NCBI RefSeq assembly: GCF_001730525.1
Contig: NZ_MDFN01000035.1
Location: forward strand, 1-51,683
Length of the DNA: 51,683 nt
Source of the DNA: Arcticibacter eurypsychrophilus
GTDB lineage: Bacteria > Bacteroidota > Bacteroidia > Sphingobacteriales > Sphingobacteriaceae
Direction: 5' to 3'
The notes beneath the pieces are model-generated. The model was not told the DNA's origin. It saw nothing but the letters and a program-made list of their open reading frames with translations, and made no database searches. The translations under genes were made by a program, and so were the position numbers. This document shows positions 15,134 to 38,914 of the stretch, in pieces; the stretch's first letter is position 1, and every line of letters starts with the position of its first letter.

Positions 15134-15178
15134 CAGGATGGTACAGGTTGCCTCTGCATAGGTTTCCGGCTACGTTTG
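15134..15178 (+). promoter_or_regulatory. PUL promoter 1 (SusC/SusD) with CAGG-N6-CAGG activator site
   Basis: CAGG (15134-15137) and CAGG (15144-15147) form a 10-bp-spaced direct repeat; TTG (15148-15150) follows at once, then 20 bases, then TACGTTTG (15171-15178), a full match to the Bacteroidota -7 consensus. Transcription should begin near 15184, giving a leader of about 50 bases. The same layout occurs at 20374 and 37610. Confidence 0.75.
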
Positions 15179-15199
15179 CATTGGGTTAATTGTTTGTTT

Positions 15200-15219
15200 G
15201 GCTTCTCCCAAGCCTTTTT
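15200..15219 (+). terminator. Attenuator-like hairpin in the SusC leader
   Basis: GGCTT (15200-15204) pairs with AAGCC (15210-15214) around CTCCC, followed by five Ts. It ends 13 bases before the SusC start codon, inside the leader predicted from the promoter at 15134-15178. The stem is short, so the effect may be partial. Confidence 0.45.
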
Positions 15220-15232
15220 AATACCTAATTAT

Positions 15233-18200
15233 ATGAATATAGTAAAGAATTCTTTACAATTTTTATGGAAGAGCAAAAGTCTTTCTCTTCTTCTGTTAAT
15301 TACATTGTTCAATGTAAACGTCTTCTCACAAGACCGGAATATTACCGGACAGGTAAGTGATTCGCAAGGAGCTTTACCAGGTGTATCCGTAATGGTTAAG
15401 GGCACCAAAGTAGGTGTTTCAACTGGTGTTGATGGTAAATACGTAATCAAAGCAGCAACAGGTGCTGTGTTGGTTTTTACTTCTATCGGATATGATACAA
15501 AGCAGATTCCTAGTACCGATCAAACTGTAATTAATGTGGTCATGGGATCTAGCAACAAGCAACTAGACGAAGTGGTAGTGATTGGTTATGGTACACAAAA
15601 AAGAAGTAACGTAACTGGCTCCATATCAAAGATAACTGCTGAGTCAATAGCAGAACGGCCGATTACACGTGTAGAGCAGGCGTTACAGGGACAAGTTGCT
15701 GGTGTAAGTGTTCGTAGTACTTCAGGTGCTCCGGGAAGTGACATCACTGTCAATGTGCGTGGTGCTGCTTCTATTAATGGCTCGACTGCTCCTTTATATG
15801 TAGTTGATGGGGTGACTTTAGATAATTTATCAGGTATTAATCCTTCTGATATTCAATCTATTGATGTTTTAAAAGATGCTGCATCTGCCGCAATATACGG
15901 ATCCAGAGGATCAAACGGTGTTGTTTTGGTTACTACAAAACGTGGCAAAACTGGTAAACCGGTTTTCTCTGTTTCTGCTTACACTGCTTTAGCTCAGGCT
16001 GAACGTAAAGTGAATGTAATGAGTTCGGATGAATGGATTGCCTTTGGCAAAAAATGGCTAGATCATCAATGGGTTGCTACTACAGGCTTAAGTGCATCGG
16101 CTACTCAGGATGAAAGATTGGATTATGCACGAAAAGCATCTATCACCAATCCGAAAAATCCATATCTGACAAGAGCTAATATATTAGATGGCCGTACTAC
16201 GTATGGCTTATATGATCCGTACTGGGGAACTGATGCTATTGAGCCGATAGATTGGCAAGATGAGCTTTTTCGCACAGCTCCTGTAACTGATATTCAGTTA
16301 AGCGCATCAGGTGCTACTGAAACGATCAACTATTCGTTATCAGGAGGTGCATTTAGTCAGGAGGGCCTTGTTGAAGGTTCGTCATTTGATCGGTATTCAT
16401 TCCGTTCTAATATTGAAGCTCAGATGAGCAAAAGGATTAAAATTGGTCTTACACTTGCTCCTTCAGTAGGCATAACAAAAGGTGCCAATGTAGACGGTAA
16501 GGATAACTCGGTATCACGTGCCTTGTCTTATCCTGGATGGGTATTAGCAGGTTCAGGAAGAATGGCAGGAGCCGATCCTTATAAGTTTTATGATGGATGG
16601 GGACCTGGAGCGAATAATGTAAGTCCTTATGTTCAGGCTGTTTACAATGATCGTTTAATTAGGGATACCCGATTGAATACGTCCTTTACTACTACGATAA
16701 ACATTCTGGATGGATTGAATCTGAATGGTTTGGTGGGATGGAACTACCGTGGAAATACGAACAGGATATATAACCCAACATGGATTCAGGGGACTTGGAA
16801 TACAGCGACACCAGGGTCTCTATCTTCTTCAAGAAAGACTACATTATCAAACAATAATTTACTAGCTCAGGGTACTTTAAGTTATGTAAAGACCTTTGGA
16901 GATCATTCACTTGATTTTTTAGCGGGTTTATCTGAAGAGAAATTTACTGAAGAAACAACTGATCAGGGCCAGACAGGTTTTGCAAATGACAAAAGTTGGG
17001 TGTTCAATTTAGGAAGTGGAAAGGTTACCAACTACAATACGATAACAGGATCAAGCAATGCATTGATTTCTTATTTCGGAAGGTTTCAATACAACTATAA
17101 ATCGAAATATTTATTCGCCGCTTCATTGAGACGTGACGGTTCATCAAAATTCAGTCCTGATAATCGTTGGGGATGGTTTCCTGCTATTTCTACTGCATGG
17201 AATGCCAACGAAGAATCATTCATAAAAGATATCAACTGGATCAGTACAGCTAAAGTGAGGTTAAGTTGGGGACAGGCAGGAAATGACCGTATTGGAAACT
17301 CTGAATTTCTTTCTTTACTTGGTGCGCTTAATTATCCTTTAGGAGATGCACAGAGTACTGGCTATGGTTATGTGATCGGTTCTATTGCCAATTCAAAATT
17401 GCGTTGGGAAAAATCGGATAGTTATAACTTAGGTTTTGATTTAGGGATATTACGAGATCGTATTTCGATGTCGGCTGATGTATATTATAAAAAGACAACT
17501 GACTTGTTGCTTAAGGCGCCCGTTTCATTAGTGACCGGTTTTTCGACCATGTATAGCAACATAGGAAGTGTAGATAATAAGGGATTTGAAATCCAACTGA
17601 ATTCGGCTAATTTAATTGGTCAATTTAAATGGAATACATCTGCAAATGTGTCTATAAACCGCAATAAGATTACAGCACTTACCGGTGATAATGCTGACAT
17701 TAAATTTGGTCAGGGAAATACGGTTATTCAACGGGTAGGTTCACCGATCAATTCCTATTATTTACTTGAAGCTACAGGTGTTCTGCGGGATGCTGATTTT
17801 GATATTTCTGCAGACAGAAAGACGTTCACTGCAAAAATTCCGATTTACCAGGGACAAAAACCTGGGGACACTAAGTATAAAGATGCCAATAGAGATGGTA
17901 AAATCGATGCTAACGATTATGGAGTGGCTGGTAATTATCAGGCTAAATTTGAGTTTGGCTTAACGAATACTTTTGCCTACAAGAAATGGGATTTGACTGT
18001 TCTTGTACAGGGTCGTGTAGGCGGTGACTTATTGTCTATTGGTTCAAGGGGATGGAACAGGGCAACCAATGATCCAAGGTATAATTACATGGATAGTTGG
18101 TTGAACAAAGCATATTGGTCTGAAGAAGAGCCCGGAGATGGGAAAGTTCCTGCATTTTTCTCCGCTGTAACCAGTCAGTATGATACGAACTGGTTATATG

Positions 18201-18421
18201 ACGCCAGCTATATCCGCCTTAAAAATATCGCTATCGGATATAATGTACCGGTTAAAAAGATCATCAAAAGTCTTCGGTTATATGCTTCTTGCGATAATGT
18301 TTACATGTGGGATAGCTATTACCCAGGATACTCTCCGGAAGCAGCAACTCAGGATAACTCAGATTGGGGATCATATCCTCAAGCCAGAACAATTTCATTC
18401 GGTTTAAACGCAACTTTCTAA
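15233..18421 (+). CDS. SusC-like TonB-dependent outer membrane transporter
   Basis: A 1062-aa SusC/RagA family transporter that imports oligosaccharides across the outer membrane with energy from TonB. Order of parts: signal peptide (about residues 1-32), a CarboxypepD-reg-like domain starting ITGQVSDSQGALPGV, the TonB-box region LDEVVVIGYGTQKRSNVTGS, the plug domain with VNVRGAASINGSTAPLYVVDGV and IYGSRGSNGVVLVTTKRG, and a C-terminal beta-barrel ending in ATF. The open frame starts at 15101, but the ATG at 15233 gives the proper signal peptide, and the promoter at 15134-15178 excludes the longer form. Paired with the SusD-like gene 22 bases downstream; ligand probably rhamnogalacturonan-derived. 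Confidence 0.97.
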   Translation: MNIVKNSLQFLWKSKSLSLLLLITLFNVNVFSQDRNITGQVSDSQGALPGVSVMVKGTKVGVSTGVDGKYVIKAATGAVLVFTSIGYDTKQIPSTDQTVINVVMGSSNKQLDEVVVIGYGTQKRSNVTGSISKITAESIAERPITRVEQALQGQVAGVSVRSTSGAPGSDITVNVRGAASINGSTAPLYVVDGVTLDNLSGINPSDIQSIDVLKDAASAAIYGSRGSNGVVLVTTKRGKTGKPVFSVSAYTALAQAERKVNVMSSDEWIAFGKKWLDHQWVATTGLSASATQDERLDYARKASITNPKNPYLTRANILDGRTTYGLYDPYWGTDAIEPIDWQDELFRTAPVTDIQLSASGATETINYSLSGGAFSQEGLVEGSSFDRYSFRSNIEAQMSKRIKIGLTLAPSVGITKGANVDGKDNSVSRALSYPGWVLAGSGRMAGADPYKFYDGWGPGANNVSPYVQAVYNDRLIRDTRLNTSFTTTINILDGLNLNGLVGWNYRGNTNRIYNPTWIQGTWNTATPGSLSSSRKTTLSNNNLLAQGTLSYVKTFGDHSLDFLAGLSEEKFTEETTDQGQTGFANDKSWVFNLGSGKVTNYNTITGSSNALISYFGRFQYNYKSKYLFAASLRRDGSSKFSPDNRWGWFPAISTAWNANEESFIKDINWISTAKVRLSWGQAGNDRIGNSEFLSLLGALNYPLGDAQSTGYGYVIGSIANSKLRWEKSDSYNLGFDLGILRDRISMSADVYYKKTTDLLLKAPVSLVTGFSTMYSNIGSVDNKGFEIQLNSANLIGQFKWNTSANVSINRNKITALTGDNADIKFGQGNTVIQRVGSPINSYYLLEATGVLRDADFDISADRKTFTAKIPIYQGQKPGDTKYKDANRDGKIDANDYGVAGNYQAKFEFGLTNTFAYKKWDLTVLVQGRVGGDLLSIGSRGWNRATNDPRYNYMDSWLNKAYWSEEEPGDGKVPAFFSAVTSQYDTNWLYDASYIRLKNIAIGYNVPVKKIIKSLRLYASCDNVYMWDSYYPGYSPEAATQDNSDWGSYPQARTISFGLNATF

Positions 18422-18443
18422 ATTATATATAGAACAAGAAAAT

Positions 18444-19973
18444 ATGAAAGTTTTATCAAAATGTACATTTCTAATCCTTACGGTAGCAATTACTTTGCAG
18501 TCTTGCGTAAAAGATTTGGATATTGCACCCATAGCTAATAATAGTGCTAGTGCTTTTTACTCAAGTGAAATAGAGGTTAATCAAGCTGCGATTGGGATAT
18601 ATGCCCGACTGGGGCGTAATGGTACGAATACTGATTTTCCAACAGAGTACTTTTATCTGGCATCTGAAAACCGTGCCGATATTCTCTATATTGCCGGTGA
18701 AACTTCTGCTCAAAATGATCAGCTTGATTTACGAAAATACTTAATAACACCGAATTCGGGTACGGTAAATTCGATCTTTTTAAGGATGTATCAAATTATT
18801 AAAGAAGCGAATAACCTATTGTATTTTACCAAAGAGGGTGAATATATGCGTTATCGTGCAGAGGCAAGCTTTTTACGAGCTTATGCTTACTCAGAATTGG
18901 TTCGATCATTTGGTCCTGTGGCATTAACAACCGCTCCGATAGAAAGTGCCGATGCAATAGCTTTGCCCAGGGCATCTATCGCTGAAATTTATACCCAGAT
19001 TATATCAGATTTAGAATATGCTTCTGCTAACCTGGCTGATGTGTATACTCTTGCCCAATCTGGAAGGGTAGGTAGTTTAGCTGCAAAGGCTTTATTGGGA
19101 CAAGTATATATGACGATGGCTGGATATCCAAGTAATGATGCAACAGCAAATGCGAAAGCAGAGGCTATATATGCCAGTATAATTACAGGGGTTGAAGCAC
19201 GTTTTAGTCCTACTTACGCAGGTCTGTTTACGTTAGCAAACGAGAATAAATATGATCTTTTTTCTGTTCAATTTGCTTCAAATGCAGCGGGACTGGGATC
19301 AAGTTTACCGGGTTATATAACCAGCTCTTCTTCTTCGGGTACTCCATTCCCTGACTGGGCTTTTAGTACTTACAGTCAGCAGGGGCAGGATTTACGAGTT
19401 GACAGTGTGCTGGTTAAAGAAATGCGTGCAAATAAGGATCTTCGTTTGGCAGGCAGCATTGATACGGCCTATAATACGTATGCAAAAACTGCAAAGGGAG
19501 CTGATACCACTATTGTTGTAAAGAAAAGCATCATCACTAAATTTTTGGAAAAGGATAAAACAAATTCAAAAATTTTGTTTTGGAACGATTATCCACGTAA
19601 TTTCCCTATCATCCGTGATGCTGATGTAATTTTACTGTATGCTGAAGCCTTAATTAAAGATAGTAAGGCATCTCAGGCAAAACAATATGTAGACAAGATC
19701 AGGGTTCGTGCCGGACTTCCAGCCTTAACGGCAAATCCTACTATGGATGATATCAAGCGCGAACGTAAGTTGGAATTTATAGGAGAGGGCAGAAGGTATT
19801 TTGATTTGGTAAGATGGGGTGAAGCTGAAGCAGTTGGCACCTTAAAAGCCTTTACTGTTAGGTATCATTCGAAGTTGAATGGACTAGCTCCAGCAGTTAA
19901 GGATTTATTATTGCCTATTCCTCAGGCTGAGATGAACAATAGAAGCAACTGGGACCAAAACTTAGGCTATTAA
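18444..19973 (+). CDS. SusD/RagB family surface glycan-binding lipoprotein
   Basis: A 509-aa lipoprotein whose signal peptide ends LQSC (Cys21). It forms the lid over the SusC transporter and binds the glycan on the cell surface. Seen: N-terminal SusD segment with FYSSEIEVNQAAIGIYARLG, the TPR-like part with RYRAEASFLRAYAYSELVRSFG, and the C-terminal RagB part with RDADVILLYAEALIK and RERKLEFIGEGRRYFDLVRW, ending with LLPIPQAEMNNRSNWDQNLGY. Length is normal. It shares the promoter before SusC and is closed by a terminator, so the SusC/SusD pair is its own transcription unit. Confidence 0.97.
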   Translation: MKVLSKCTFLILTVAITLQSCVKDLDIAPIANNSASAFYSSEIEVNQAAIGIYARLGRNGTNTDFPTEYFYLASENRADILYIAGETSAQNDQLDLRKYLITPNSGTVNSIFLRMYQIIKEANNLLYFTKEGEYMRYRAEASFLRAYAYSELVRSFGPVALTTAPIESADAIALPRASIAEIYTQIISDLEYASANLADVYTLAQSGRVGSLAAKALLGQVYMTMAGYPSNDATANAKAEAIYASIITGVEARFSPTYAGLFTLANENKYDLFSVQFASNAAGLGSSLPGYITSSSSSGTPFPDWAFSTYSQQGQDLRVDSVLVKEMRANKDLRLAGSIDTAYNTYAKTAKGADTTIVVKKSIITKFLEKDKTNSKILFWNDYPRNFPIIRDADVILLYAEALIKDSKASQAKQYVDKIRVRAGLPALTANPTMDDIKRERKLEFIGEGRRYFDLVRWGEAEAVGTLKAFTVRYHSKLNGLAPAVKDLLLPIPQAEMNNRSNWDQNLGY

Positions 19974-20011
19974 TATAAATTTCACTTCTTTCCTGATGGC
20001 AGGAAGCAATA

Positions 20012-20053
20012 AGAGAACGACCCTTTTCATTCAAGGGGTCGTTCTCTCTTTTT
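20012..20053 (+). terminator. Intrinsic terminator after SusD
   Basis: Stem of 14 bp (20012-20025 with 20033-20047, one bulged G) followed by a T-run (20049-20053). Confidence 0.9.
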
Positions 20054-20132
20054 GGGATAGTCAGGTTTAAAGAAGTTTTTTTTTGCAAAATGTTACCTGG
20101 ATGAGAAGAGTTTGGAAATTTCGGCTTTACAA

Positions 20133-20163
20133 TTGTGCTTCAACAAGGCCTTTATTATATTTG
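20133..20163 (+). promoter_or_regulatory. Consensus promoter before a 43-aa ORF
   Basis: TTG (20133-20135), 20 bases, then TATATTTG (20156-20163), a full match to the Bacteroidota consensus. It lacks the CAGG repeat of the PUL promoters and lies 26 bases before the small ORF. Confidence 0.6.
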
Positions 20164-20189
20164 ATCAGCAAAAAGGTAAAGCTTAAATT

Positions 20190-20321
20190 ATGGAAAATTA
20201 CAAACGGTACACAACATTAGATAAGAGGAATTATCCTTTTTGGTTAAGGGAGCTTATTGCGCTATTATTAGGGAAAAGGTATTGGATAGTGATACCCGAA
20301 TTAACAGTATTAACGATCTGA
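20190..20321 (+). CDS. Possible 43-aa small protein
   Basis: ATG to TGA frame coding for a basic peptide with a hydrophobic centre (WLRELIALLLGKRYW). It sits directly after a consensus promoter in the gap between SusD and the first GH105 gene. I do not recognise it. It could be a true small protein, the 5' part of a lost gene, or a marker of a small RNA. Confidence 0.4.
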   Translation: MENYKRYTTLDKRNYPFWLRELIALLLGKRYWIVIPELTVLTI

Positions 20322-20373
20322 GATGTAACATATCTGTATCTTTAGTCGCTAACGGCCTGTTCAGTGCATCAAG

Positions 20374-20418
20374 CAGGATGCTGCAGGACACATATCAAGT
20401 TAAATCTAGTTAGATTAG
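20374..20418 (+). promoter_or_regulatory. PUL promoter 2 (GH105 unit) with CAGG-N6-CAGG activator site
   Basis: CAGG (20374-20377) and CAGG (20384-20387) as a 10-bp direct repeat. The -33 place holds ACA instead of TTG, and TAGATTAG (20411-20418) is a near-consensus -7 that starts 37 bases after the repeat start, as in promoter 1. The degenerate -33 fits dependence on an activator. The start codon at 20450 is close behind. Confidence 0.65.
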
Positions 20419-20449
20419 GCCTTCCTAAAACTATTAACCAACCCTAAAA

Positions 20450-21796
20450 ATGAAAGCTTTTATTATCAGTTGTATTTTTTTATTAACCAGTGTCATGTCT
20501 ATGGCACAGCCAAAGAAGCCTGCGAACGATGTAACGAGTCCGCTTCATCTGTTAAAGCCGAATTATCCGGTTCTTTATGGAGAGACGAAACCTCAGGACA
20601 TTAAAGTGGTGCTGGATAGGATGTATGCTTACCTGGATCAGGCTACACCATTTCAACTGGTTAATAAGTCTACAGGTGTCCCGGTTGCTAATTTTAAAAA
20701 TGCAGGTGCCAATGATCAATTCAAACAGGGAGATTTTAGGCTGATCAGCTATGAATGGGGAATTACTTACACCGGAATGCTGTTAGCTGCTGAGGTGACA
20801 GGGGATAAAAAATTTCTTGATTACTCGGTGAACCGGATTAGTTTCTTAGCTGATGTGACTTCAAATTACCTTCCACTGTATAAAAAGGATCCTAAGGCGG
20901 CATCACCAGTGCGGTCTGTTCTGGAGCCTCATGCTTTAGATGATGCAGGTTCGATGAGTGCTGCACTGATTAAAACGTATGCTACAGGGAAGCTTAAGGC
21001 TAATATACGTCCCCTGATCGACAACTATCTCAACTACATCATGACTAAAGAATTCCGTCTGACTGATGGTACTTTAGCACGGAATCGTCCACAACCCAAT
21101 ACGTTGTGGCTGGATGATTTATATATGAGTCTTCCTGCATTAGTGCAAATGGGCAAACTGACAGGAGATGAAAAATACTATGAAGAAGCGGTAAAACAGT
21201 TCCAGCTTTATTCAAAACGGATGTTCAACAAGAGCAATGGATTATATATGCATGGCTGGGTTCAGGACATGGAGCCTCACCCTCAGTTTCATTGGGCTAG
21301 GGCTAATGGCTGGGCTTTATTGACTAAAATAGAGATTCTGGATGTGCTTCCTGAAAATTATCCGGGTAGAAAAGAGATCATGGATGAGCTGATTGCGCAT
21401 ATTAAAGGTCTGACTGCACTGCAACATGGAACGGGTTTCTGGCATCAGCTTTTAAATAAAAATGATAGTTATCTGGAAACATCAGCTACTGCGATTTATA
21501 GTTATTGCATAGCCCGTGCGATTAATAAAGGTTGGATTGATGCGAAAGCATATGGCCCTGTGGCACTGCTGGCCTGGAATGCAGTAAGCTCGAAAGTGAA
21601 CGATAAGGGTCAGGTGGAAGGGACTTGTGTAGGAACGGGGATGGGTTTTGATCCTGCTTTTTATTATTACAGACCAGTAAACAATTTTGCTGCCCATGGA
21701 TATGGTCCTGCATTGATGGCTGGCGCAGAGATGTTCCGCTTGCTTCAGGATCATCCTTATGTGATTAACGATAGTGCAGTTCAATTTCTTAAATAA
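20450..21796 (+). CDS. GH105-like family protein (unsaturated uronyl hydrolase type), periplasmic
   Basis: A 448-aa protein with a signal peptide (residues 1-19) and an (alpha/alpha)6-barrel of the GH88/GH105 type. These enzymes remove the 4,5-unsaturated galacturonate left on oligosaccharides by pectin lyases such as PL11. Seen: YEWGITYTGMLLAAE (101-115), LDDAGSMSAALIK (163-175), TLWLDDLYMSLPAL (218-231) with the conserved Asp pair, HWARANGWALLTK (281-293), and GTGFWHQLL. It is the first gene of the unit driven by PUL promoter 2 and is followed after 9 bases by GH95. A second, more typical GH105 lies at 37716. Confidence 0.85.
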   Translation: MKAFIISCIFLLTSVMSMAQPKKPANDVTSPLHLLKPNYPVLYGETKPQDIKVVLDRMYAYLDQATPFQLVNKSTGVPVANFKNAGANDQFKQGDFRLISYEWGITYTGMLLAAEVTGDKKFLDYSVNRISFLADVTSNYLPLYKKDPKAASPVRSVLEPHALDDAGSMSAALIKTYATGKLKANIRPLIDNYLNYIMTKEFRLTDGTLARNRPQPNTLWLDDLYMSLPALVQMGKLTGDEKYYEEAVKQFQLYSKRMFNKSNGLYMHGWVQDMEPHPQFHWARANGWALLTKIEILDVLPENYPGRKEIMDELIAHIKGLTALQHGTGFWHQLLNKNDSYLETSATAIYSYCIARAINKGWIDAKAYGPVALLAWNAVSSKVNDKGQVEGTCVGTGMGFDPAFYYYRPVNNFAAHGYGPALMAGAEMFRLLQDHPYVINDSAVQFLK

Positions 21797-21805
21797 GACA
21801 GACGC

Positions 21806-24223: not shown

Positions 24224-24241
24224 ATTTGTATAAATAAAGAA

Positions 24242-25546: not shown

Positions 25547-25550
25547 CGGC

Positions 25551-27086: not shown

Positions 27087-27195
27087 GAATCAGCATGATG
27101 AGCAGCGTATTTAAAGGAAACAGAATGGTTGAAATAGTTGGTCCCGTATCATTGACTCCCTTAAAATATATTAAACCTTCTTTTACATCCAATAA

Positions 27196-28218: not shown

Positions 28219-28236
28219 ACATCAATTGAATAAATA

Positions 28237-31116
28237 ATGAGTTTTAAAAAAGGACTATTCACAATCGTACTGATGACATTTTTTGTGTTTCAGGGCTGGG
28301 CACAATCCGCCATAAAAAAAGAAATACAATATCTTTCAGGAACAGATAATGAGCATACAGTAGCCTGGGATTTCTGGTGTACCGGTGGAAGAAATAGTGG
28401 CGTCTGGTCAAAGATACAGGTGCCTTCACAATGGGAGCAACAAGGTTTTGGAGCATATAATTACGGTCGTGATTATGTAACATATGGCAAGAACTTCCGT
28501 TTTGCTGATGAAAAAGGAATTTATAAACATGAGTTTACTATTCCTTCAAACTGGCGGGGGAAAGAGGTGTTTATCGTTTTTGAAGGATCAATGACGGATA
28601 CTGAAGTGAAGATAAATGGTCAGTCAGCCGGGGCGATTCATCAGGGGGCTTTTTATCGTTTTAAATATAACATAGGAGATAAACTTTTATATAATAAGCC
28701 CAATAAACTGGAGGTCACTGTAAGCAAAATGTCCGCTGATAACTCGGTCAATAATGCAGAACGATTAGCTGACTATTGGATCTTTGGAGGAATATTTCGT
28801 CCGGTGTATCTGGAAGTTTATCCTCAGGAACATATTGATTATACTGCAATAGATGCAAAGGCAGATGGTTCCTTTGCGATGAATGTTTTCCTTAAAAATA
28901 TACCATCCGGAAGAGAAATATTGGCGGAGATAGTTGATTCAAAAGGGAAAGTTGTAGGAACAGCTCAAGCAGCCACACAGGGGAATGACTCTGTAATTAA
29001 CCTGAAAACTAAAGTAAATAAGCCTTTAGCCTGGACTGCAGAAACTCCTAATCTGTACAAGGTGAATGTATCGGTACTAAATGCAGGAAAAACGGTATAC
29101 CAGACTACAAATAAATTTGGTTTCAGAACTATTGAAGTACGAAAGGGTGACGGGATTTATGTAAATGGAACAAAGATTAAAATGAAAGGGGTTAACCGCC
29201 ATGTATGGTGGCCCGAAACTGGTCGTTCTATTAATCCCAAGATAGATTTGGATGATGTGAAACTGATCAAGGAAATGAATATGAATGCGATTCGTTGTTC
29301 CCATTATCCTCCGGATCAAACCTTTCTTAATTATTGTGATTCATTGGGATTGTATGTCCTTGATGAGCTGGCAGGATGGCAAAAAGCATATAGTACTAAA
29401 GTGGGTATGCCTTTGGTTAAGGAAATGGTGATTCGGGATATGAATCATCCATCTATTATTTTTTGGAGTAACGGTAATGAAGGAGGTCATAATTTTGATC
29501 TGGATGACGACTATGGGAAATATGATCTTTCCAACCGGCCTGTGATTCATGCACATCACCGTCCGGGTAATGCATTTAATGGTATTGATTGTAATCATTA
29601 TGAGGATTATTATAGTACACGAAAAATACTGGCCGATACAAATATTTATATGACTACTGAATTTCTTCATGCTCAGGATGATGGGGGAGGAGCAGCGGCA
29701 TTATCAGATTTCTGGGATCTTCATTGGAATTCTAAAAAAGGTGCAGGTGGCTTTATCTGGGATTTGGTAGACGAAGGAATTGTGCGTACGGATCAAAATA
29801 ATATTATTGATGTAAATGGGGTCAATGCTCCGGATGGTCTTGTTGGTCCTCACCGGGAGAAGGAAGGAAGTTTTAATGCCATTCGCGAGATTTATTCCCC
29901 GGTAAAAATTACATTAAAAGAGCTGCCAGCAAATTTTAAAGGTGAAATACCAATTGAAAACCGGTATCATTTTACCAATGTAAATCAATGTACGTTTAGG
30001 TGGGAACTGGTTAATTTTAATAATCCGGGAGATAAGGTCAATGGATATACTACTGTGAAAAGTGGCGCTGCGGCTGCACCTTCGATTGCACCAGTAGCGA
30101 AGGGTAATTTAAAATTAAACTTGCCATCCGATTGGAAAAAGTATGACGCCCTTACCCTTTGCGCATATGATCCGTTCAAAAATGAACTGTATAAATGGGT
30201 TTGGAAAATAAAAACGAATACCCAACTGCTGGATAGTATTTTAATTACAGCAGGTAGTGACGCGGTAAATATGACCGAATCTGATAGTATCATCACGCTA
30301 AAAGCAAATGGTATTTCTGTTTTTTTTAATAAAAAGACTGGAAAACTGATGGATCTGGCTAATGACTTCAGTGCAAAATTATCTTTTGGTAACGGACCTA
30401 TTCTTGTTAGCGGAAACGCTGTTTTTGCGGGAATGAAACAGTATAAGGAGAATGACGGCTATGTCGTGGAAGCCTCATATACTGGTGATATGAAATATGT
30501 CAGATGGAAAATGTTCGGTAGCGGATGGCTGGAGATGACTTATGAGTATACGCTTAGTGGAACCTATCCCTTTGCCGGTGTAAGTTTTAGCTATCCTGAA
30601 AATTATGTTTTGGGGGCAAAATGGTTAGGTAAAGGACCTTATCGTGTGTGGAAAAATAGGCTTCAGGGCGTAACCTACGACGTCTGGGAAAATAGAAATA
30701 ACAATACACAAACGGGAAGTGCTCCATGGATCTATCCTGAATTTGAAGGTTATTACGCGGATATCGCATGGATGGAAATGAATACGGTGCAAGGTAAATT
30801 CACTATCGCCAGTAGGGATAATGACCTTTTCGTGCGGTTGTTTGCCTTTTATGCGCTATCGGGTCCAAGGCCAACTCCATCCCTTCCTTCAGGTGATATC
30901 TCCTTTCTTGATAAGATACCTCCGGTTGCAGGAAAACTTGCCTTAAATGTTAATTATAACACCGCTTCTTTAGGTCCGTTAAGCGAACCGAATAAGATCA
31001 ATGGTACAACGAAAAGGACACTTTACTTCTATTTTGGAATTCCAAAACCGGCTACGGACAATAATCAGTTCATTATGCCGAAGGAGAATATTTTGACTGA
31101 CGAAAAAATAAAGTAA
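28237..31116 (+). CDS. GH2 family beta-galactosidase-like enzyme
   Basis: A 959-aa secreted GH2 enzyme (signal peptide 1-22). Domains in order: N-terminal sugar-binding jelly roll (about 40-197), an immunoglobulin-like domain (about 200-298), the TIM barrel starting VRKGDGIYVNGTKIKMKGVNRH, and C-terminal beta-domains similar to those of large beta-galactosidases. Catalytic acid/base Glu415 in SNGNEGG and nucleophile Glu475 in MTTEFLHA are present. In this PUL it most likely removes beta-galactose from rhamnogalacturonan side chains, though beta-glucuronidase or other beta-linked activities are possible within GH2. Co-transcribed with the GH43-like gene. Confidence 0.9.
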   Translation: MSFKKGLFTIVLMTFFVFQGWAQSAIKKEIQYLSGTDNEHTVAWDFWCTGGRNSGVWSKIQVPSQWEQQGFGAYNYGRDYVTYGKNFRFADEKGIYKHEFTIPSNWRGKEVFIVFEGSMTDTEVKINGQSAGAIHQGAFYRFKYNIGDKLLYNKPNKLEVTVSKMSADNSVNNAERLADYWIFGGIFRPVYLEVYPQEHIDYTAIDAKADGSFAMNVFLKNIPSGREILAEIVDSKGKVVGTAQAATQGNDSVINLKTKVNKPLAWTAETPNLYKVNVSVLNAGKTVYQTTNKFGFRTIEVRKGDGIYVNGTKIKMKGVNRHVWWPETGRSINPKIDLDDVKLIKEMNMNAIRCSHYPPDQTFLNYCDSLGLYVLDELAGWQKAYSTKVGMPLVKEMVIRDMNHPSIIFWSNGNEGGHNFDLDDDYGKYDLSNRPVIHAHHRPGNAFNGIDCNHYEDYYSTRKILADTNIYMTTEFLHAQDDGGGAAALSDFWDLHWNSKKGAGGFIWDLVDEGIVRTDQNNIIDVNGVNAPDGLVGPHREKEGSFNAIREIYSPVKITLKELPANFKGEIPIENRYHFTNVNQCTFRWELVNFNNPGDKVNGYTTVKSGAAAAPSIAPVAKGNLKLNLPSDWKKYDALTLCAYDPFKNELYKWVWKIKTNTQLLDSILITAGSDAVNMTESDSIITLKANGISVFFNKKTGKLMDLANDFSAKLSFGNGPILVSGNAVFAGMKQYKENDGYVVEASYTGDMKYVRWKMFGSGWLEMTYEYTLSGTYPFAGVSFSYPENYVLGAKWLGKGPYRVWKNRLQGVTYDVWENRNNNTQTGSAPWIYPEFEGYYADIAWMEMNTVQGKFTIASRDNDLFVRLFAFYALSGPRPTPSLPSGDISFLDKIPPVAGKLALNVNYNTASLGPLSEPNKINGTTKRTLYFYFGIPKPATDNNQFIMPKENILTDEKIK

Positions 31117-31140
31117 TAGAAATAGTTACGATTCTATAAA

Positions 31141-31320
31141 ATGAAACATATTGAAAACTTTCATTTGGGAAATATGGAAATCATCGCAAATACCTCAGGA
31201 TCTCTTTCCTATGCAAATGGCTGGACCTTTGATCGGGTTAACTTCAAACCAACAGATCAGTCTGTTTTGGAGATAAAAAACTCGCAGAAAATGCAAGAAA
31301 TTAAATATTCAGGTAGCTAA
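31141..31320 (+). pseudogene. Remnant of a GH28 gene (C-terminal part only)
   Basis: A 59-codon frame beginning MKHIENFHLGNMEIIAN and containing SGSLSYANGWTFDRVNF, which resembles the last turn and tail of bacterial GH28 beta-helices, where a SYA-x-x-W segment precedes a short strand over the helix end. No catalytic region is present. It is most simply the 3' scar of a deleted GH28 gene between GH2 and the GH43-like gene. It still has ATG and stop, so it could also be translated as a small peptide. Confidence 0.55.
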
Positions 31321-31338
31321 TAAATAAACGTTAATCAG

Positions 31339-32409
31339 ATGGAACGTAGGAATTTTATTTCAAATCTGGCTTACATGACAGCACTAAGTCTCTTGCCTGG
31401 GTTAGCAAATGCTGGATTATTGGAAGAAGATCATGTGTCTGCATTCGCAAAGCGGCTGAAACCTATTGGACGGGCACTTGAAATGGAGGACTGGTTTGTT
31501 TGGTGTAACAGCCCGATAATGGGTGAAGATGGAAAGGTTCATGTGTTTTTTTCCCGTTGGCCTAAGTCAAAGGGAATGGGAGGTTGGATAAACAGCAGTG
31601 AAATAGCCCATGCTATAGCGGATCGGCCTGAAGGTCCATTCAATTATTTAGAAACCGTACTTAACCCACGGGGTGCAGGCTTTTGGGATGCAACGACTTG
31701 TCATAATCCCCATATTACTTATGTAGACGGGCTCTATTGCCTGTTCTTTATGGGAAATTCCAATGGTAAAACGAATACCAAACGAATTGGGTTAGCTACT
31801 GCTAAATCTGTAAACGGACCCTGGAAACGACCGGATCAGCCTTTACTTGAACCAGGGGCAGCGGGCGAATGGGATGACCATTGTACGACCAATCCTGCTT
31901 TTGTAAAACACCCTAATGGACAGTATTGGTTGTATTATAAATCGTGGAATACAGCCGATTATGTGAATTCGAAAGACCCTAAAATTAGAGGTAACCGCAA
32001 ATATGGTCTGGCCATTGCAGATAAACTGGAAGGTCCTTATTTAAAATACCACAATAACCCAGTTATTGATTTTTCAAAAAAAGGAAATAACAGGCAGTTT
32101 GAGGATGCATTTGTATGGCGGGAGAACGGCAAGTTTAATATGCTCGCCAGAGATATGGGCGTTTATAGTCAGGAAGTAGGTCTTTATTTGAAATCAGAAA
32201 ATGGAATTAAATGGGATGAGCCACTGATAGCCTATAAACCTCTTAAAGAATATATTCAGGAGGCTCCCGTTCCATCTAATTTAACCCGTTACGGGAGATT
32301 GGAAAGGCCCCAAATCCTGTTCATCGATAATAAACTAGCTTATCTGTTTACCGCTGCTCAAGGTGGCAAATATTCAACCGCATCGTCATTTATTTTTAAA
32401 ATAAATTAA
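31339..32409 (+). CDS. GH43/GH117-like beta-propeller glycosidase, Tat-like leader
   Basis: A 356-aa protein with blades of the five-bladed propeller fold: GEDGKVHVFFSRWP, THCHNPHITY-like entry at DATTCHNPHITYVDGLYCLFF, NPAFVKHPNGQYWLYYKSW, FEDAFVWRENGKFNMLARD and ERPQILFIDNKLAYLFTAAQ. Its N-terminus (MERRNFISNLAYMTALSLLP) has the twin Arg of a Tat leader, unlike its Sec-dependent neighbours. It differs from the propeller protein at 27196. Substrate unknown; an unusual exo-glycosidase acting on a rare pectin sugar is possible. It starts 18 bases after the GH28 remnant. Confidence 0.7.
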   Translation: MERRNFISNLAYMTALSLLPGLANAGLLEEDHVSAFAKRLKPIGRALEMEDWFVWCNSPIMGEDGKVHVFFSRWPKSKGMGGWINSSEIAHAIADRPEGPFNYLETVLNPRGAGFWDATTCHNPHITYVDGLYCLFFMGNSNGKTNTKRIGLATAKSVNGPWKRPDQPLLEPGAAGEWDDHCTTNPAFVKHPNGQYWLYYKSWNTADYVNSKDPKIRGNRKYGLAIADKLEGPYLKYHNNPVIDFSKKGNNRQFEDAFVWRENGKFNMLARDMGVYSQEVGLYLKSENGIKWDEPLIAYKPLKEYIQEAPVPSNLTRYGRLERPQILFIDNKLAYLFTAAQGGKYSTASSFIFKIN

Positions 32410-32505
32410 TGGAGAGGAAAGCCTTTAGCTCATGCTTTTAATTTTTTTTGTGAGAAATTGAACAAGAATTAAACACAGTACTTTGTATAATATAAATTAG
32501 TTGGA

Positions 32506-34662
32506 ATGAAAATACAGTTTAAGAAAATACCGGCATTAGTATCAACTTTTTTTGTCCTTATGTCAGGGTTTTCTGCCCATGCTCAACCCATAAACCGCCA
32601 GGCAGTAGTATCGCGCCATGATGTAATCAATACCAGTGTTGATTCCTTATCATCACTTTCCCTGGGAAACGGAAAATTTGCTTTTACGGCTGATGTAACC
32701 GGATTACAGACCTTTCCGGACTCGTATGAAAAAGGTGTATGTTTAGGTACCCAATCGGAATGGGGCTGGGATAGCTTTAAAGATACTATTGGTTATAAAT
32801 TTGAAGAAACGCTGAAAGAATATACGTTCAATGGACATAAGGCTACTTATGCTGTCCAATGGTCCGAACCCTTAAGAAACAGGAATGCCTCTAATTGGTT
32901 CAGACAAAACTCCCATCGTTTACAATTGGGGAACCTTGGATTCGATATATACAAGAAAGACGGATCTTTAATTAAGGTCACTGATGTCAAGGGCATAAAT
33001 CAGAAATTGAATTTATGGACAGGCGAATTGATCAGTCATTTTACTGTAGAGGGAATCCCGGTGGATGTTGTCACTGTTTCTCATCAGGAGCAGGATCTGG
33101 TTGCGGTACGGGTAACCTCGAAGCTGATCCAAATGGGGAGATTAAAAATAAGACTTCGCTTTCCTTATCCGACAGGTGAGTTTGCAGATGGGGGGAATAA
33201 CTGGAATAGTCCAGAGAGCCATTCCTCTACAATCCTGAACCAAAGCGGTGATGGAGCTTCCATCCAGCATCAATTGCAAGGGTCTAATTATTTTGTTTCT
33301 TTAAAATGGCTCAACAAGGCCTCTCTTATAAAAAACACTACTCCACATTATTTTACTGTTACACCTGATAAAAGTACTAGTGTATTTGAACTAAGTTGTC
33401 TTTTTACGCCCGAAGTGGTATCACCTTCCTCTTTGCCTGCTTTTGCTGCAACAAGAATTGAAAATCAGCAGCAATGGAAAGCTTTTTGGTCAAGAGGTGC
33501 AGCAATTGATTTTGCGGGAAGTACTGATCCAAGGGCAAAAGAACTGGAACGCCGTGTGGTGCTTTCTCAATACCTGACTAAAATGCAATGTGCCGGTAAT
33601 TATCCTCCACAGGAGACAGGCCTAACCTTTAACAGCTGGTTTGGAAAGCCACATCTGGAAATGCATTGGTGGCATGCAGTTCACTTTGCTTTATGGAACC
33701 GGGTTGATTTAATGGAAAAAAGCTTGGGCTATTACGCCAAAGTGGAAGATAAAGCAAAGTTACTTGCCGAGCGTCAGGGTTATAAGGGTGTACGTTGGCA
33801 AAAGATGACTGATAACGAAGGAAATGAAAGTCCTTCCTCTGTCGCAGCCTTCCTAATCTGGCAACAACCTCACTTTATCTATCTGGCTGAGTTGTGTTTC
33901 AGGGATAAAGAGGATACTGCAATCCTGAATAAATATAAAGATCTTGTTTTTGCAACAGCCGATTTTATGGCCTCTTTCCCAACCTATGACAAGGAAAATG
34001 ACCGCTATACATTGGGAAAAGGAGTTATTCCTGCACAGGAATGTTTTCCGGCAAAAGACACGTTCAACCCAACGTATGAGGTTGCTTATTGGGATTGGGC
34101 TTTAAAAACTGCACAGAAATGGCGTGAACGCTTAGGGATGCCCCGGAATACAGAATGGGATAAAATACTGGTTAAATTATCTCCCTTACCCACATTGAAT
34201 GGGGTTTATTTATCAACAGAAAGTGCAAAGGACAGTTATACGAACCCACGCTGGCGCATTGACCACCCTTCTGTTTTAGGTGCTCTGGGTATGGTACCCG
34301 CATCAGAAAAGCTAGATAAAGCAACTATGCAGCGTACATTTGATCTTGTGAATAAGGTATGGTCCTGGGATGATACCTGGGGATGGGATTTTCCGATGAC
34401 AGCTATGACTGCAGAACGTCTTGGACACCCCGATAAAGCGATCGATGCTTTGTTTATGAATGTCAAAACAAACACTTATCTGAAGAATGGACATAACTAT
34501 CAGGACGGACGATTACGTATTTACCTTCCCGGAAACGGTGGCGTGCTGGCTGCCGTAGCAATGATGGCCGGAGGTTGGGATGGAAGCACCCTTCAAGAAC
34601 AAGGCTTTCCTAAAAACGGGAAATGGAAAGTACGTGCTGAAGGATTCAAAAAAATGCCCTAA
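32506..34662 (+). CDS. Secreted (alpha/alpha)6-barrel glycosidase, GH65-like, specificity unknown
   Basis: A 718-aa protein with signal peptide (1-26). The N-terminal half is a beta-sandwich (from about residue 30 to 280) with LSLGNGKFAFTADVTGLQTFP, which recalls the N-terminal domain of GH65/GH95-type enzymes. The C-terminal half is an (alpha/alpha)6 barrel: EMHWWHAVHFALWNR, GYKGVRWQKMTDNEGNESPS (like the GY-x-G-x-x-(F/W) region of GH65), QQPHFIYLAELCFRDKED, and DDTWGWDFPMTAMTAERLG. I can place it in clan GH-L-like enzymes but not in a characterised family. It lies directly before PL11, so a role in rhamnogalacturonan side-chain removal is likely. Confidence 0.65.
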   Translation: MKIQFKKIPALVSTFFVLMSGFSAHAQPINRQAVVSRHDVINTSVDSLSSLSLGNGKFAFTADVTGLQTFPDSYEKGVCLGTQSEWGWDSFKDTIGYKFEETLKEYTFNGHKATYAVQWSEPLRNRNASNWFRQNSHRLQLGNLGFDIYKKDGSLIKVTDVKGINQKLNLWTGELISHFTVEGIPVDVVTVSHQEQDLVAVRVTSKLIQMGRLKIRLRFPYPTGEFADGGNNWNSPESHSSTILNQSGDGASIQHQLQGSNYFVSLKWLNKASLIKNTTPHYFTVTPDKSTSVFELSCLFTPEVVSPSSLPAFAATRIENQQQWKAFWSRGAAIDFAGSTDPRAKELERRVVLSQYLTKMQCAGNYPPQETGLTFNSWFGKPHLEMHWWHAVHFALWNRVDLMEKSLGYYAKVEDKAKLLAERQGYKGVRWQKMTDNEGNESPSSVAAFLIWQQPHFIYLAELCFRDKEDTAILNKYKDLVFATADFMASFPTYDKENDRYTLGKGVIPAQECFPAKDTFNPTYEVAYWDWALKTAQKWRERLGMPRNTEWDKILVKLSPLPTLNGVYLSTESAKDSYTNPRWRIDHPSVLGALGMVPASEKLDKATMQRTFDLVNKVWSWDDTWGWDFPMTAMTAERLGHPDKAIDALFMNVKTNTYLKNGHNYQDGRLRIYLPGNGGVLAAVAMMAGGWDGSTLQEQGFPKNGKWKVRAEGFKKMP

Positions 34663-34748
34663 AAAAGCTAGTCTAATACCTTTACACCCATAAAACAGAT
34701 CCTTTCAAGTGCCCATTAAAAAAAACTGAAATAAATCATCGAACGTAA

Positions 34749-36611
34749 ATGACACCAATACGAAATGTAAAGTATTTTTATCGCCTATCTCTAGCACTAG
34801 CCTTATTGCTCATCAGTACAGAGAGAATTTACTCCCAAAGAGTGATGGAAAATCTAAGCCGTGGGCTAATAGCTGTTAACCAGGGGGAAGGGAAAGTTTA
34901 TATCGGGTGGCGCTTGTTTGGCACCGATCAGGAGGATATATCCTTCAACTTATACCGTTCATCTGCGGCTAAGGCACCAATCAAGATTAATAAGGAGCCA
35001 ATTTTAGTAAGTACAAATTATGTAGATGAAACAGTTGATACCAAACAGCAAAACGACTATTTTATAAAGCCTGTGCTTAATGGGGCAGAGGGTGTAGCAA
35101 GTAAATCTTTTACTTTGCCTGCCAACTCAGCGGTTCAGCAGTATCTTTCTATCCCTCTACAAACCCCTCTTGGTTATAGCCCCAATGATGCCTCTACGGC
35201 TGACCTGGACGGTGATGGTGATTACGAAATTGTGCTGCATCAAACCGGAAAAGGAGCGGATAATAGTTTCAAAGGTTTTACAGATCCTCCGATTTTTCAG
35301 GCTTATAAGATGGATGGAACACTATTGTGGTCTATAAATCTGGGGAAGAATATCAGAGAAGGAGCTCATTATACCCAGTTTATGGTTTATGATCTGGACG
35401 GAGATGGAAAAGCGGAATTCGCATGTAAAACTGCCGATGGAACAGTTGATGCAAAGGGTAAAGTTATTGGCGATTCAACGAAAGATTACCGGAATAAAGA
35501 TGGCAAAATCTTGGATGGACCTGAATATTTTACCATTTTTAGCGGACAAACAGGTGAAATTCTTGCTACTACGGATTATATTCCGTCCCGATATCCAACA
35601 GCTGGTTGGGGAGGACATGGCGGAAACGGTGGAACAGACAATAACGGAAATCGTGTAGATCGTTTTACTGCTTGTATCGCTTATCTCGATGGCAAACTGC
35701 CTAGTGTGGTGATGTGTCGTGGCTATTATGGTCGTAGCGTATTAGCCGCATGGGATTGGAGAGATGGTAAACTCACATCACGCTGGGTGTTTGATTCCAA
35801 AAATGCAGATAATCCTTTCTCCGGACAAGGGTACCATACGGTAAGTGTCGCAGATGTAGATCAGGATGGTAAAGATGAGATCATATATGGATCTATGGTG
35901 GTTGACGATAATGGTAAAGGGCTGTTTTCGACCGGATTAAGGCATGGTGATGCCTTGCATGTTACCGATCTCGATCCCTCCAAGCCTGGACTTGAAGTCT
36001 TTGGTGTCCATGAAATAGAAGAACGTACCAAAGGAGCTGGTGTAGCATTATATAATGCTAAAACTGGGGAGATCTATTGGAAAGGTTCCATGGATCAGGA
36101 CGTAGGCAGAGGAGTTGCTGATGATATTGATCCTGAGAATCCTGGTGCAGAGATGTGGTGGTCCGGCTCAAACGGTTTATTCAATATGAAAGGAACGCGC
36201 ATAGGAGAAAATCCTTCCTCCACTAACTTCCTGATCTGGTGGGACGGTGACTTGTCCCGGGAGCTTCTGAATGGAAACTATATCGATAAGTATAAAAAGG
36301 GAAGAATCTTTACAGCTGAGGGGTGCGTTTCGAATAACGGGACAAAATCCAATCCCGTATTAAGTGCTGATCTTTTTGGTGACTGGAGAGAGGAAGTTAT
36401 ATTCCGTACCCAGGATAATAAGGAACTTCGAATTTTTACCACAACTATCCCTACTGAGCACCGGCTGTATACCCTGATGCATGATCCGCAATACCGTTTA
36501 AGTGTTGCCTGGCAGAATGTAGGGTATAATCAACCACCACATACCAGTTTTCTCCTTGGAACAGGCATGCAAAAAGCGCCAAAACCTAATATTATTCTGA
36601 CTCACAAATAG
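34749..36611 (+). CDS. PL11 rhamnogalacturonan lyase
   Basis: A 620-aa secreted lyase of family PL11, which cleaves the rhamnose-galacturonate backbone of rhamnogalacturonan I by beta-elimination and leaves unsaturated galacturonate ends. Signal peptide about residues 1-29. Order: N-terminal beta domain (RVMENLSRGLIAVNQG to VYIGWRLFG), then the eight-bladed propeller with calcium-binding loops such as DLDGDGDYEIVLHQTGKG and DLDGDGKAEFACKTADGT, GYYGRSVLAAWDW, GYHTVSVADVDQDGKDEIIYG, HGDALHVTDLDP, and the C-terminal LFGDWREEVIFR with MHDPQYRLSVAWQN. Length is normal. This gene best identifies the PUL's target. Confidence 0.97.
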   Translation: MTPIRNVKYFYRLSLALALLLISTERIYSQRVMENLSRGLIAVNQGEGKVYIGWRLFGTDQEDISFNLYRSSAAKAPIKINKEPILVSTNYVDETVDTKQQNDYFIKPVLNGAEGVASKSFTLPANSAVQQYLSIPLQTPLGYSPNDASTADLDGDGDYEIVLHQTGKGADNSFKGFTDPPIFQAYKMDGTLLWSINLGKNIREGAHYTQFMVYDLDGDGKAEFACKTADGTVDAKGKVIGDSTKDYRNKDGKILDGPEYFTIFSGQTGEILATTDYIPSRYPTAGWGGHGGNGGTDNNGNRVDRFTACIAYLDGKLPSVVMCRGYYGRSVLAAWDWRDGKLTSRWVFDSKNADNPFSGQGYHTVSVADVDQDGKDEIIYGSMVVDDNGKGLFSTGLRHGDALHVTDLDPSKPGLEVFGVHEIEERTKGAGVALYNAKTGEIYWKGSMDQDVGRGVADDIDPENPGAEMWWSGSNGLFNMKGTRIGENPSSTNFLIWWDGDLSRELLNGNYIDKYKKGRIFTAEGCVSNNGTKSNPVLSADLFGDWREEVIFRTQDNKELRIFTTTIPTEHRLYTLMHDPQYRLSVAWQNVGYNQPPHTSFLLGTGMQKAPKPNIILTHK

Positions 36612-36737
36612 CGACAATGAATTCAATAATAACTTCCTTGGTGTCCAACGAATGCGGAAAGTGTTACTGGTGGAAATGTAGATTTTAGTTAAGGTCCAGT
36701 TTGAATAAATAATAAATACTAGATAAAATATTAAAAA

Positions 36738-37505
36738 ATGTTCAATAAAAAGAGATCAATATTCCTGCTGATTGTTTTATTTGCAGTATCCCTTGCCTTT
36801 ATAAATAAAGAGAAACCAACGTTATTTATTATTGGAGACTCAACGGTAAGGAATACAAATCCATCTTATATGGGTTGGGGGACAGCAATCGCTGAGCTTT
36901 TCGATACAACAAAAATCAATGTCACCAATCATGCTATGGCAGGCAGAAGTACCCGAACATTCATAAAAGAGGGCCGTTGGGCAAAGGTAGATTCCATGCT
37001 TAAACCGGGAGATTATGTTATGATGCAATTCGGACATAATGAAGGAAGTACCCCTGATACCAACAAAGCCGGATACAGAGGGGTATTAAAAGGAACCGGA
37101 GAAGAAACAAAAGAACTCATCTGGCCTGATGGTAAGCCCGAAACCGTACATACCTACGGTTGGTACATCCGCCAATTTATTCATGATGCAAAAGCGAAAG
37201 GTGCCATTCCAATTGTGCTTTCTATGATCCCCAGAAATGAATGGAAAGATAATAAAGTCATTCGTGCCAACAACGATTACGGAAAATGGGCTAAAGAGGT
37301 AGCACAACAAGAAGGTGCCTGTTTTATTGACCTGAACGCAATAACTGCAGATAAATATGATAAAATGGGTCCGGTGAAAGTAAAAGCCTTGTTTCCATCT
37401 GATCATACACATACCGATTCCATAGGAGCAAAAATTAATGCTGAATCTGTTGTCAAAGGATTAAAAAAACAAAGAAAAATTTCATTAAACGCCTATCGTA
37501 AATAA
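36738..37505 (+). CDS. Rhamnogalacturonan acetylesterase, CE12 (single domain)
   Basis: A 255-aa SGNH esterase of CE12, short form without an accessory domain. Seen: IGDSTV (32-37, Ser35 nucleophile), GRSTRTF (69-75), FGHNE (98-102), and the Asp222/His225 pair in SDHTHTD. All catalytic residues are canonical, in contrast to the GNST variant of the first CE12 at 24242. The N-terminus has one hydrophobic helix (residues 8-22) acting as signal peptide or anchor. It probably deacetylates rhamnogalacturonan fragments in the periplasm, next to PL11, which lies 126 bases upstream with no terminator in between. Confidence 0.93.
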   Translation: MFNKKRSIFLLIVLFAVSLAFINKEKPTLFIIGDSTVRNTNPSYMGWGTAIAELFDTTKINVTNHAMAGRSTRTFIKEGRWAKVDSMLKPGDYVMMQFGHNEGSTPDTNKAGYRGVLKGTGEETKELIWPDGKPETVHTYGWYIRQFIHDAKAKGAIPIVLSMIPRNEWKDNKVIRANNDYGKWAKEVAQQEGACFIDLNAITADKYDKMGPVKVKALFPSDHTHTDSIGAKINAESVVKGLKKQRKISLNAYRK

Positions 37506-37609
37506 CGAAGGGAAGCAGTATCAATTCCCCACAGTAACCGTAATTTTACACCACCTGATTGAAATAAATATGCCATTGGAGACAATTGAGGCAATATGTT
37601 AAGTCAAAA

Positions 37610-37654
37610 CAGGATGCTACAGGTTGCAAATGGGGAAAAATAATAGTAAAATAG
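37610..37654 (+). promoter_or_regulatory. PUL promoter 3 (second GH105 unit) with CAGG-N6-CAGG activator site
   Basis: CAGG (37610-37613) and CAGG (37620-37623) as a 10-bp direct repeat, then TTG (37624-37626), 20 bases, and TAAAATAG (37647-37654). From CAGG through TTGC, 17 of 18 bases equal promoter 1. The -7 is weak (4 of 6 fixed positions) but sits at exactly the same distance. Confidence 0.65.
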
Positions 37655-38864: not shown

Positions 38865-38868
38865 TATA

Positions 38869-38899: not shown

Positions 38900-38914
38900 C
38901 TCCAGATAATAACC

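Follow-up and report, generated by a model that had tools for sequence, protein, structure and literature searches.

A predicted direct-repeat operator shared by rhamnogalacturonan I and L-rhamnose genes in Sphingobacteriaceae, with a GntR/LacI-type hybrid as candidate regulator

Introduction

The control of polysaccharide utilization loci (PULs) is best known from Bacteroides, where those for rhamnogalacturonan I (RG-I, a pectin) are assigned to hybrid two-component systems (HTCS). In the available part of the work on Bacteroides thetaiotaomicron, HTCS_Rgu is described with RG-I PULs, SusC/D pairs, RG-I enzymes and direct-repeat sites, HTCS sites lie on average 21 bp apart and rhamnose is assigned to the AraC-type RhaR (PMC3878776). 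Regulons named RhaS/RhaR, RhgR, RhiR and DeoR-type RhaR join rhamnose catabolism and the use of rhamnose oligosaccharides under one or related regulators; according to the sections of that study available to us, these regulators belong to the AraC, DeoR and LacI families, Bacteroidales represent the Bacteroidetes, and the motifs repeat at 21 bp for the AraC type and at 10-11 bp for the DeoR type (PMC3870299). Here, we analysed a 51,683-nt contig stretch of Arcticibacter eurypsychrophilus (the window; its own genome is the same assembly), in which three copies of a direct-repeat box precede genes of a rhamnogalacturonan-type PUL. We consider it somewhat probable, from sequence comparison, that these boxes are operators of one regulon joining L-rhamnose catabolism and RG-I breakdown in Sphingobacteriaceae, with a GntR/LacI-type hybrid protein as candidate regulator.

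The predicted regulon joins the same two processes as those of PMC3870299 but, as far as they are presented there, differs from them in its lineage, in a fixed distance of 37 bases to a -7 octamer and in its GntR hybrid candidate; this comparison concerns targets and regulator families and leaves the motif letters aside. It shares with HTCS_Rgu the RG-I targets and the direct-repeat sites, whereas HTCS_Rgu-2, in the available text, has two 14-bp sites with a 6-bp spacer and control by hybrid two-component systems (PMC3878776). The winged helix of the GntR family, including its AraR subfamily, is common to the candidate, and typical operators of that family are palindromic, unlike the box. Some GntR proteins (NanR, NagQ, FarR and MocR) are nevertheless described as using direct repeats, and a 10-bp (2 x 5-bp) repeat locked to a -7 element is not among the GntR motifs in the available parts of the same two sources (PMC4494728, PMC5320631). 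None of the titles and abstracts that we found described the box or a GntR rhamnose/RG-I regulon in Sphingobacteriaceae, supplements and subscription papers being outside the scope of this search.

Results

Three boxes lie 37 bases ahead of -7 octamers in the window

The first-pass annotation of the window had described a CAGG-N6-CAGG direct repeat before three genes, with a fixed spacing to the -7 element, and the letters bore this out. Three plus-strand repeats were present, CAGGATGGTACAGG (15134), CAGGATGCTGCAGG (20374) and CAGGATGCTACAGG (37610). As had been claimed, the stretch through TTGC is shared by sites 1 and 3 in 17 of 18 bases, sites 2 and 3 have 13 of 14 in common, and TTG, ACA and TTG, respectively, directly follow the repeat. 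Box 1 (CAGGATGGTACAGGTTGC, 15134..15151) lies upstream of SusC/SusD, box 2 (CAGGATGCTGCAGGACAC, 20374..20391), the weakest of the three, upstream of the first GH105-type gene, GH95, a GDSL esterase and GH28, and box 3 (CAGGATGCTACAGGTTGC, 37610..37627) upstream of the second GH105-type gene, GH31, GH2, RhaM and GH42. All three contain CAGGATGSTRCAGG, and the genes that they head were correctly named as SusC (15266) and two Glyco_hydro_88 (GH105/GH88-type) genes (20450 and 37716). The octamers TACGTTTG (15171..15178), TAGATTAG (20411..20418) and TAAAATAG (37647..37654), all on the plus strand, start exactly 37 bases after the respective box start (+37) and are of the type TAnnTTTG, which the consulted part of PMC7366714 gives as the consensus at -7 for the primary sigma factor of Bacteroidota. 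The core of the proposed repeat unit was right but its extent was not: the unit is longer, sites 1 and 3 each containing two copies of CAGGWTGC at a distance of 10 bp.

Allowing up to three mismatches, the window contained 18 matches, three of them exact, compared to a shuffle mean of 7.1, and none of 100 shuffles reached 18. A weight matrix of box plus octamer, built mostly from relatives (58 training sites, with the window's sites in the pool), gave scores above 6 bits at the three sites only (38.9, 38.8 and 24.2), and no fourth box above this value was found in the window. An open frame continuous with SusC extends upstream through box 1, and the SusC start at 15266 is therefore an inferred one.

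Additional boxes in the same genome precede RG-I-type operons

With at most one mismatch, the genome contained 18 matches, compared to two for the reversed pattern; of the 18, 12 fell elsewhere inside open frames of more than 200 codons, and a further one inside a frame of 104 codons. The intergenic matches outside the window, C1:94472 and C6:50926, both carried an octamer at +37 (TAGAATCG and TATGTTCG, respectively). The former stands before a gene pair for a GDSL esterase and a GH106 rhamnosidase, whose leader measures about 380 bases, and the latter before a SusC-SusD-HTCS operon. A wider search with the 18-mer and up to three mismatches yielded 28 matches, compared to seven in the reversed control, and added C93:31046, with the octamer TACATTCG at +37; 27 of the 28 matches were placed, and two scoring 25 and 22 bits were set aside because of their location inside frames of 368 and 473 codons. 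Downstream of the C93 box is a lipoprotein gene that by eye resembles the box-led fasciclin-domain lipoproteins of relatives, one of which shows the Fasciclin domain by Pfam. Thus, three extra boxes that had no part in building the motif precede RG-I-type operons with the octamer at +37. The first-pass annotation had named random occurrence of the motif in the genome, without promoter association or conservation, as a refutation; in the scan with at most one mismatch, every promoter-like match had the octamer at +37.

At L020:11915-16054, an HTCS gene lies downstream of a boxed SusC-SusD pair; this HTCS is possibly a target rather than the owner of the box.

The box and its spacing are conserved across the family

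Searching CAGGATGSTRCAGGWTG in 150 genomes returned three matches in the own genome and nine in eight relatives, with none for the reversed control, and no match was found in 59 genomes of other families. The 17-mer CAGGATRSTRCAGGTTG was then sought in 399 genomes of the family, giving 63 matches in 51 genomes, including the own one, and again none when reversed. Among the 57 distinct sites with full flanks, 53 had unrelated flanks (less than 70% alike), and dropping four near-duplicates left 53 non-redundant sites. An octamer matching at least 4 of 6 positions stood at +37 in 45 of these 53, compared to 0-7 at 41 other offsets from 18 to 59; at a threshold of 5 of 6, 29 sites had it. The base following the searched 17-mer was C in 46 of the 53 sites; the pattern used to search for RG-I sites itself included the TTG at +14. 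Six of the 57 sites lay inside open frames of more than 150 codons, including box 1 of the window, whose frame runs into SusC, and L090 and L091, which share a 558-codon frame and have no octamer.

A further search with the 18-mer CAGGATGSTRCAGGTTGC in the genomes of 84,980 named species found 55 stretches, whose taxonomic groups were assigned from record titles. Sphingobacteriaceae contributed 15 stretches, 12 with the octamer and 13 outside frames of at least 150 codons; the corresponding numbers were six, two and four for Chitinophagales, two, one and one for Flavobacteria, and one, zero and zero for unplaced Bacteroidetes. The 31 stretches from all other groups, outside Bacteroidota, served as the chance control, and among them one had the octamer and three lay outside frames.

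Within stretches of up to 20 kb around the sites of relatives, the targets were homologues of PL11, GH105, GH95, GH2, GDSL esterase and GH28, and boxes also preceded GH106 homologues and fasciclin-SusC-SusD operons. Up to four boxes were present per stretch when mismatches were allowed. Departures from this pattern in the stretches were L073 and L090/L091, without octamer, L039, without an RG-I homologue adjoining its site, and one strong site of L080 (see below). The comparison of upstream regions of relatives' PULs, which had been suggested for the window's boxes, showed that, apart from these, box and octamer at +37 are kept before RG-I genes.

Several sites had features of their own. In L080, near 13823 on the minus strand, a full-strength box with octamer lies behind an HTCS stop codon and points into a convergent GH28-like gene, and no target was seen for it. 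L046 (G055:C1:504283 and 504305) has two perfect RG-I boxes 22 bp apart, and only the downstream one has an octamer at +37. A box-like sequence, CAGGACAGTACAGGTTGC with the octamer TTATTTTT, is present near 16433 in L157, close to the start of a frame resembling an extracytoplasmic function (ECF) sigma factor, which is followed by FecR and SusC homologues. Words similar to AACCAATTA or ACCAAATA were seen by eye, uncounted, about 10-20 bases past the octamer in a number of sites.

The rhamnose operon carries a related box

The rhamnose operon rhaT-rhaD-rhaI-rhaK is headed by a box of similar letters in the same arrangement: in both cases, a 10-bp direct repeat, reading CAGGAYRSTRCAGGTTGC before RG-I genes and CATGACAGTNCATRACAGTT before rhaT, starts 37 bases ahead of a TAnnTTTG-type octamer. 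CATGACAGTNCATRACAGTT was found ahead of rhaT first in 14 loci and subsequently in 20, with some genomes shared between the two sets. When the rhaT boxes were picked by their own letters alone, the octamer stood at +37 in 19 of the 20, with at most 6 of 20 at other offsets, and the twentieth site scored 3 of 6 at +37 (TATTTAGC). As these letters had been fixed after viewing the same promoters, 150 genomes were separately searched with CATGACAGTDCATRACAG. This gave 15 matches in 15 genomes, 12 of which were new to the reading of rhaT promoters, and none for the reversed control; all 15 preceded rhaT and had the octamer at +37. The rhaT site of the own genome is CATGACAGTGCATGACGGAT, with the octamer TAGTTTTA, and is not an exact match to CATGACAGTDCATRACAG.

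The first units of the rhaT and RG-I boxes differ mainly at base 3 (CATGAYRGT and CAGGAYRST, respectively), and the rhaT boxes carry ACA-type letters where the RG-I pattern has TTG. When the rhaT boxes were compared with themselves, agreement was highest at period 10 (7.75 of 10), followed by period 5 (4.7), and both kinds of box can be read as four 5-bp units. The operon was traced by its bifunctional aldolase, RhaD (TIGR02632), which scored above its cut-off in 33 of 36 genomes, the exceptions being G009, G021 and G025. The classical isomerase RhaA had been tried as marker and was replaced by TIGR02632, as it occurred in one of the 36 genomes.

A GntR/LacI-type hybrid is the candidate regulator

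A GntR protein with a LacI-type domain was first seen adjoining the box in L077. Its homologues (at least 47% identity) were found in 33 of the 36 genomes, namely in all 26 box genomes examined (of 51) and in 7 of 10 others; they were present in 33 of 33 RhaD-positive genomes and in none of the three RhaD-negative ones. The gene is the last of a box-led run in L036, lies between GH106 and the box in L083, adjoins the PUL in L077 and L080 and rhaT in four loci (L159, L167, L170 and L171), and in G055 (L049) is some 16 kb away from a box. By hand count, the gene's distance to RhaD or a box is at most 25 kb in 21 of 33 genomes. A single such hybrid (E 1e-30), which would then serve both the RG-I and the rhaT boxes, is present in five box genomes (G056, G166, G180, G248 and G314). 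The own hybrid, at L234:2043-3074 (G000:C9), has GntR and Peripla_BP_3 domains, with 32.5 bits for PF00392 (cut-off 27) and 29.2 for PF13377 (cut-off 26.5), and three of four orthologues scanned miss the second (PF13377) cut-off. Its helix-turn-helix (HTH) is closest to MocR/PdxR models, far below their cut-offs, and to solved GntR domains including that of AraR. The combination of GntR and LacI-type domains is, we presume, that of AraR.

Paralogues of the same build provided a view of the class. Arrays of TGGTNTGGT (TGGTN) had 22 overlapping matches in 5.9 kb of upstream regions, compared to 16 in 242 kb elsewhere, all 22 falling in six of 21 paralogue loci (L241, L247, L248, L249, L250 and L253), and these arrays are probably the own operators of the paralogous hybrids. 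In L245, 10-bp repeats lie before (CTGTACTGTTCTGTTTTGTT) and after (CTGTACTGGTCTGTATTGTT) the gene, each with an octamer at +37. Direct repeats would fit the GntR/LacI hybrid class, and the candidate is tied to the box by what may be called guilt by association.

A number of observations weigh against this assignment. Both the RG-I and the rhaT sites are direct repeats, not the palindromes typical of GntR proteins, whose operators are usually palindromic in the accessible part of PMC4494728. For 10-bp repeats, the 21 paralogue upstream regions had one match at 37 and 0-6 at other offsets, with no general excess; across the whole loci, there were seven at period 10 and 0-4 for each of seven further periods, but other offsets gave 0-6, with no clear excess except in L245. 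Most TGGTN arrays, judged by eye, are not at +37. No box was found upstream of the four rhaT-adjacent GntR genes. The own gene adjoins trehalase-like GH15 and major facilitator superfamily genes, 10 kb from rhaD and outside the PUL. The RG-I 17-mer was not matched in seven genomes that have both the GntR protein and RhaD, and at least six genomes have two close GntR copies. With several bases differing between the RG-I and the rhaT boxes, two related regulators are possible. Finally, co-occurrence with RhaD is expected of any rhamnose gene, and only three of the genomes examined were without RhaD.

Other factors were weighed against the GntR hybrid. The first-pass annotation had proposed a shared PUL regulator of the AraC or hybrid two-component kind. 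Its shared regulator, placed at a fixed distance from the -7 element and with RG-I targets, is strongly supported by the family-wide data, but the kind of regulator is not supported, and we regard an HTCS or AraC-type activator as an unlikely owner of the box. A position at -33 would suit an activator, HTCS genes occur in box-led or box-neighbouring loci of the own genome (C6) and of some relatives, two perfect boxes stand 22 bp apart in one relative, and the RG-I PULs of B. thetaiotaomicron are assigned to HTCS in the part of PMC3878776 consulted. However, the box has a periodicity of 10 bp rather than the about 21 bp of HTCS and AraC-type sites, and a second copy (at least 10 of 18 matches) lay at -21 in none of the 53 sites and at -22 in six, the latter being the only, weak excess of an upstream half-site, with four of 53 at -17 overlapping the box. 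The own-genome HTCS lies downstream of a box and may be a target. Conservation was compared for one PUL-linked HTCS and for the AraC protein of the window (9586-10752), and neither followed the box across genomes: the HTCS of relatives had an orthologue (at least 57%) in 7 of 36 genomes, and the identity of its HTH within the own genome did not exceed 34%; along the length of the AraC protein, matches were limited to 24-32% in the remaining 35 genomes. Both were rejected as the cognate factor.

A DeoR-family regulator, as predicted for RhaR in other phyla, would match the spacing, since DeoR-type RhaR motifs are predicted as 10-11-bp direct repeats in the available sections of PMC3870299, RG-I and rhaT boxes are repeats of that kind and DeoR-type proteins are present. 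Nevertheless, DeoRC proteins occurred in all 22 genomes searched, including three without RhaD, and are thus not specific, and no DeoR protein was recognised beside rhamnose operons or PULs, where most genes were compared only with a small named set; a DeoR owner seems quite improbable. Some other conserved factor could bind both boxes, given that the search for regulators went candidate by candidate and was no unbiased survey of every factor; presence and neighbourhood already agree with the GntR hybrid, and we give such a factor a modest chance. That the repeat is a product of chance, coding sequence or a mobile element is extremely improbable: most near-matches in the own genome do lie in reading frames, but the reversed control in the family genomes gave no match, 53 of 57 flanks were unrelated and the octamer stood at one offset only.

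The window cluster is a rhamnogalacturonan-type PUL

The cluster headed by the three boxes lies on the plus strand. SusC (15266..18421; Pfam Plug and CarbopepD_reg_2) is a TonB-dependent receptor-like protein, followed by a SusD-like lipoprotein (18444..19973; SusD_RagB) and a GH105/GH88-type hydrolase (20450..21796; Glyco_hydro_88). Next, by Pfam, come GH95, a GDSL esterase, GH28, GH43, GH2, GH43, a 718-aa protein and a PL11 rhamnogalacturonan lyase (21806..36611), a second, CE12-like GDSL esterase (36738..37505; Lipase_GDSL_2), and GH105/GH88-type, GH31, GH2, L-rhamnose mutarotase RhaM and GH42-type genes (37716..46803). The labels GH105 and CE12 are presumptive, Pfam giving Glyco_hydro_88 and Lipase_GDSL_2. 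Upstream, also on the plus strand, is the AraC-type regulator (9586..10752; HTH_18), which has a hydrophobic N-terminal part and is not favoured as cognate factor.

The 718-aa protein (32506-34662) had no Pfam or NCBIfam match and is 57-75% identical to proteins of relatives' RG-I loci (L085 and L043); it is possibly an RG-I enzyme that has yet to be assigned. Between 12400 and 14849, upstream of SusC, the window encodes two proteins, one of 250 aa that has no Pfam match and one with a TIG domain; their homologues (44% and 40%, respectively) adjoin rhaT in L161 (G035).

Discussion

With the octamer centred at -7, the box would cover the -33 region. We propose that the GntR winged-helix/LacI-type protein binds the repeat head-to-tail, that it may sense L-rhamnose or a rhamnose derivative, and that it would set transcription by touching RNA polymerase at -33. 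Activation appears more likely than repression, because the spacing is rigid with or without TTG at -33, as a contact with polymerase would demand, while a covering repressor would tolerate shifts; derepression by removal of the protein from -33 is the possible alternative. Arguments from missing -33 letters are weakened, since no -33 motif could be identified in Flavobacterium johnsoniae, according to the part of PMC7366714 consulted. More tentatively, and with the balance tilted against it, a rhamnose-sensing GntR/LacI activator might read the four 5-bp units head-to-tail in place of a -33 element and thereby put the scattered RG-I PULs of the family under a cytoplasmic monosaccharide signal instead of HTCS, with the paralogues (TGGTN and CTGTN arrays) forming a family of tandem-array readers.

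In Sphingobacteriaceae, the class of targets that is assigned to HTCS in Bacteroides seems to answer to a regulator of a monosaccharide pathway, and by the exact 17-mer alone this applies to 51 of 399 genomes. The promoter rule (box, 37 bases, TAnnTTTG) is sharp enough to predict members of the regulon, and the work supplies promoters that can be tested directly, names a candidate gene and allows RG-I genes to be sought outside PULs.

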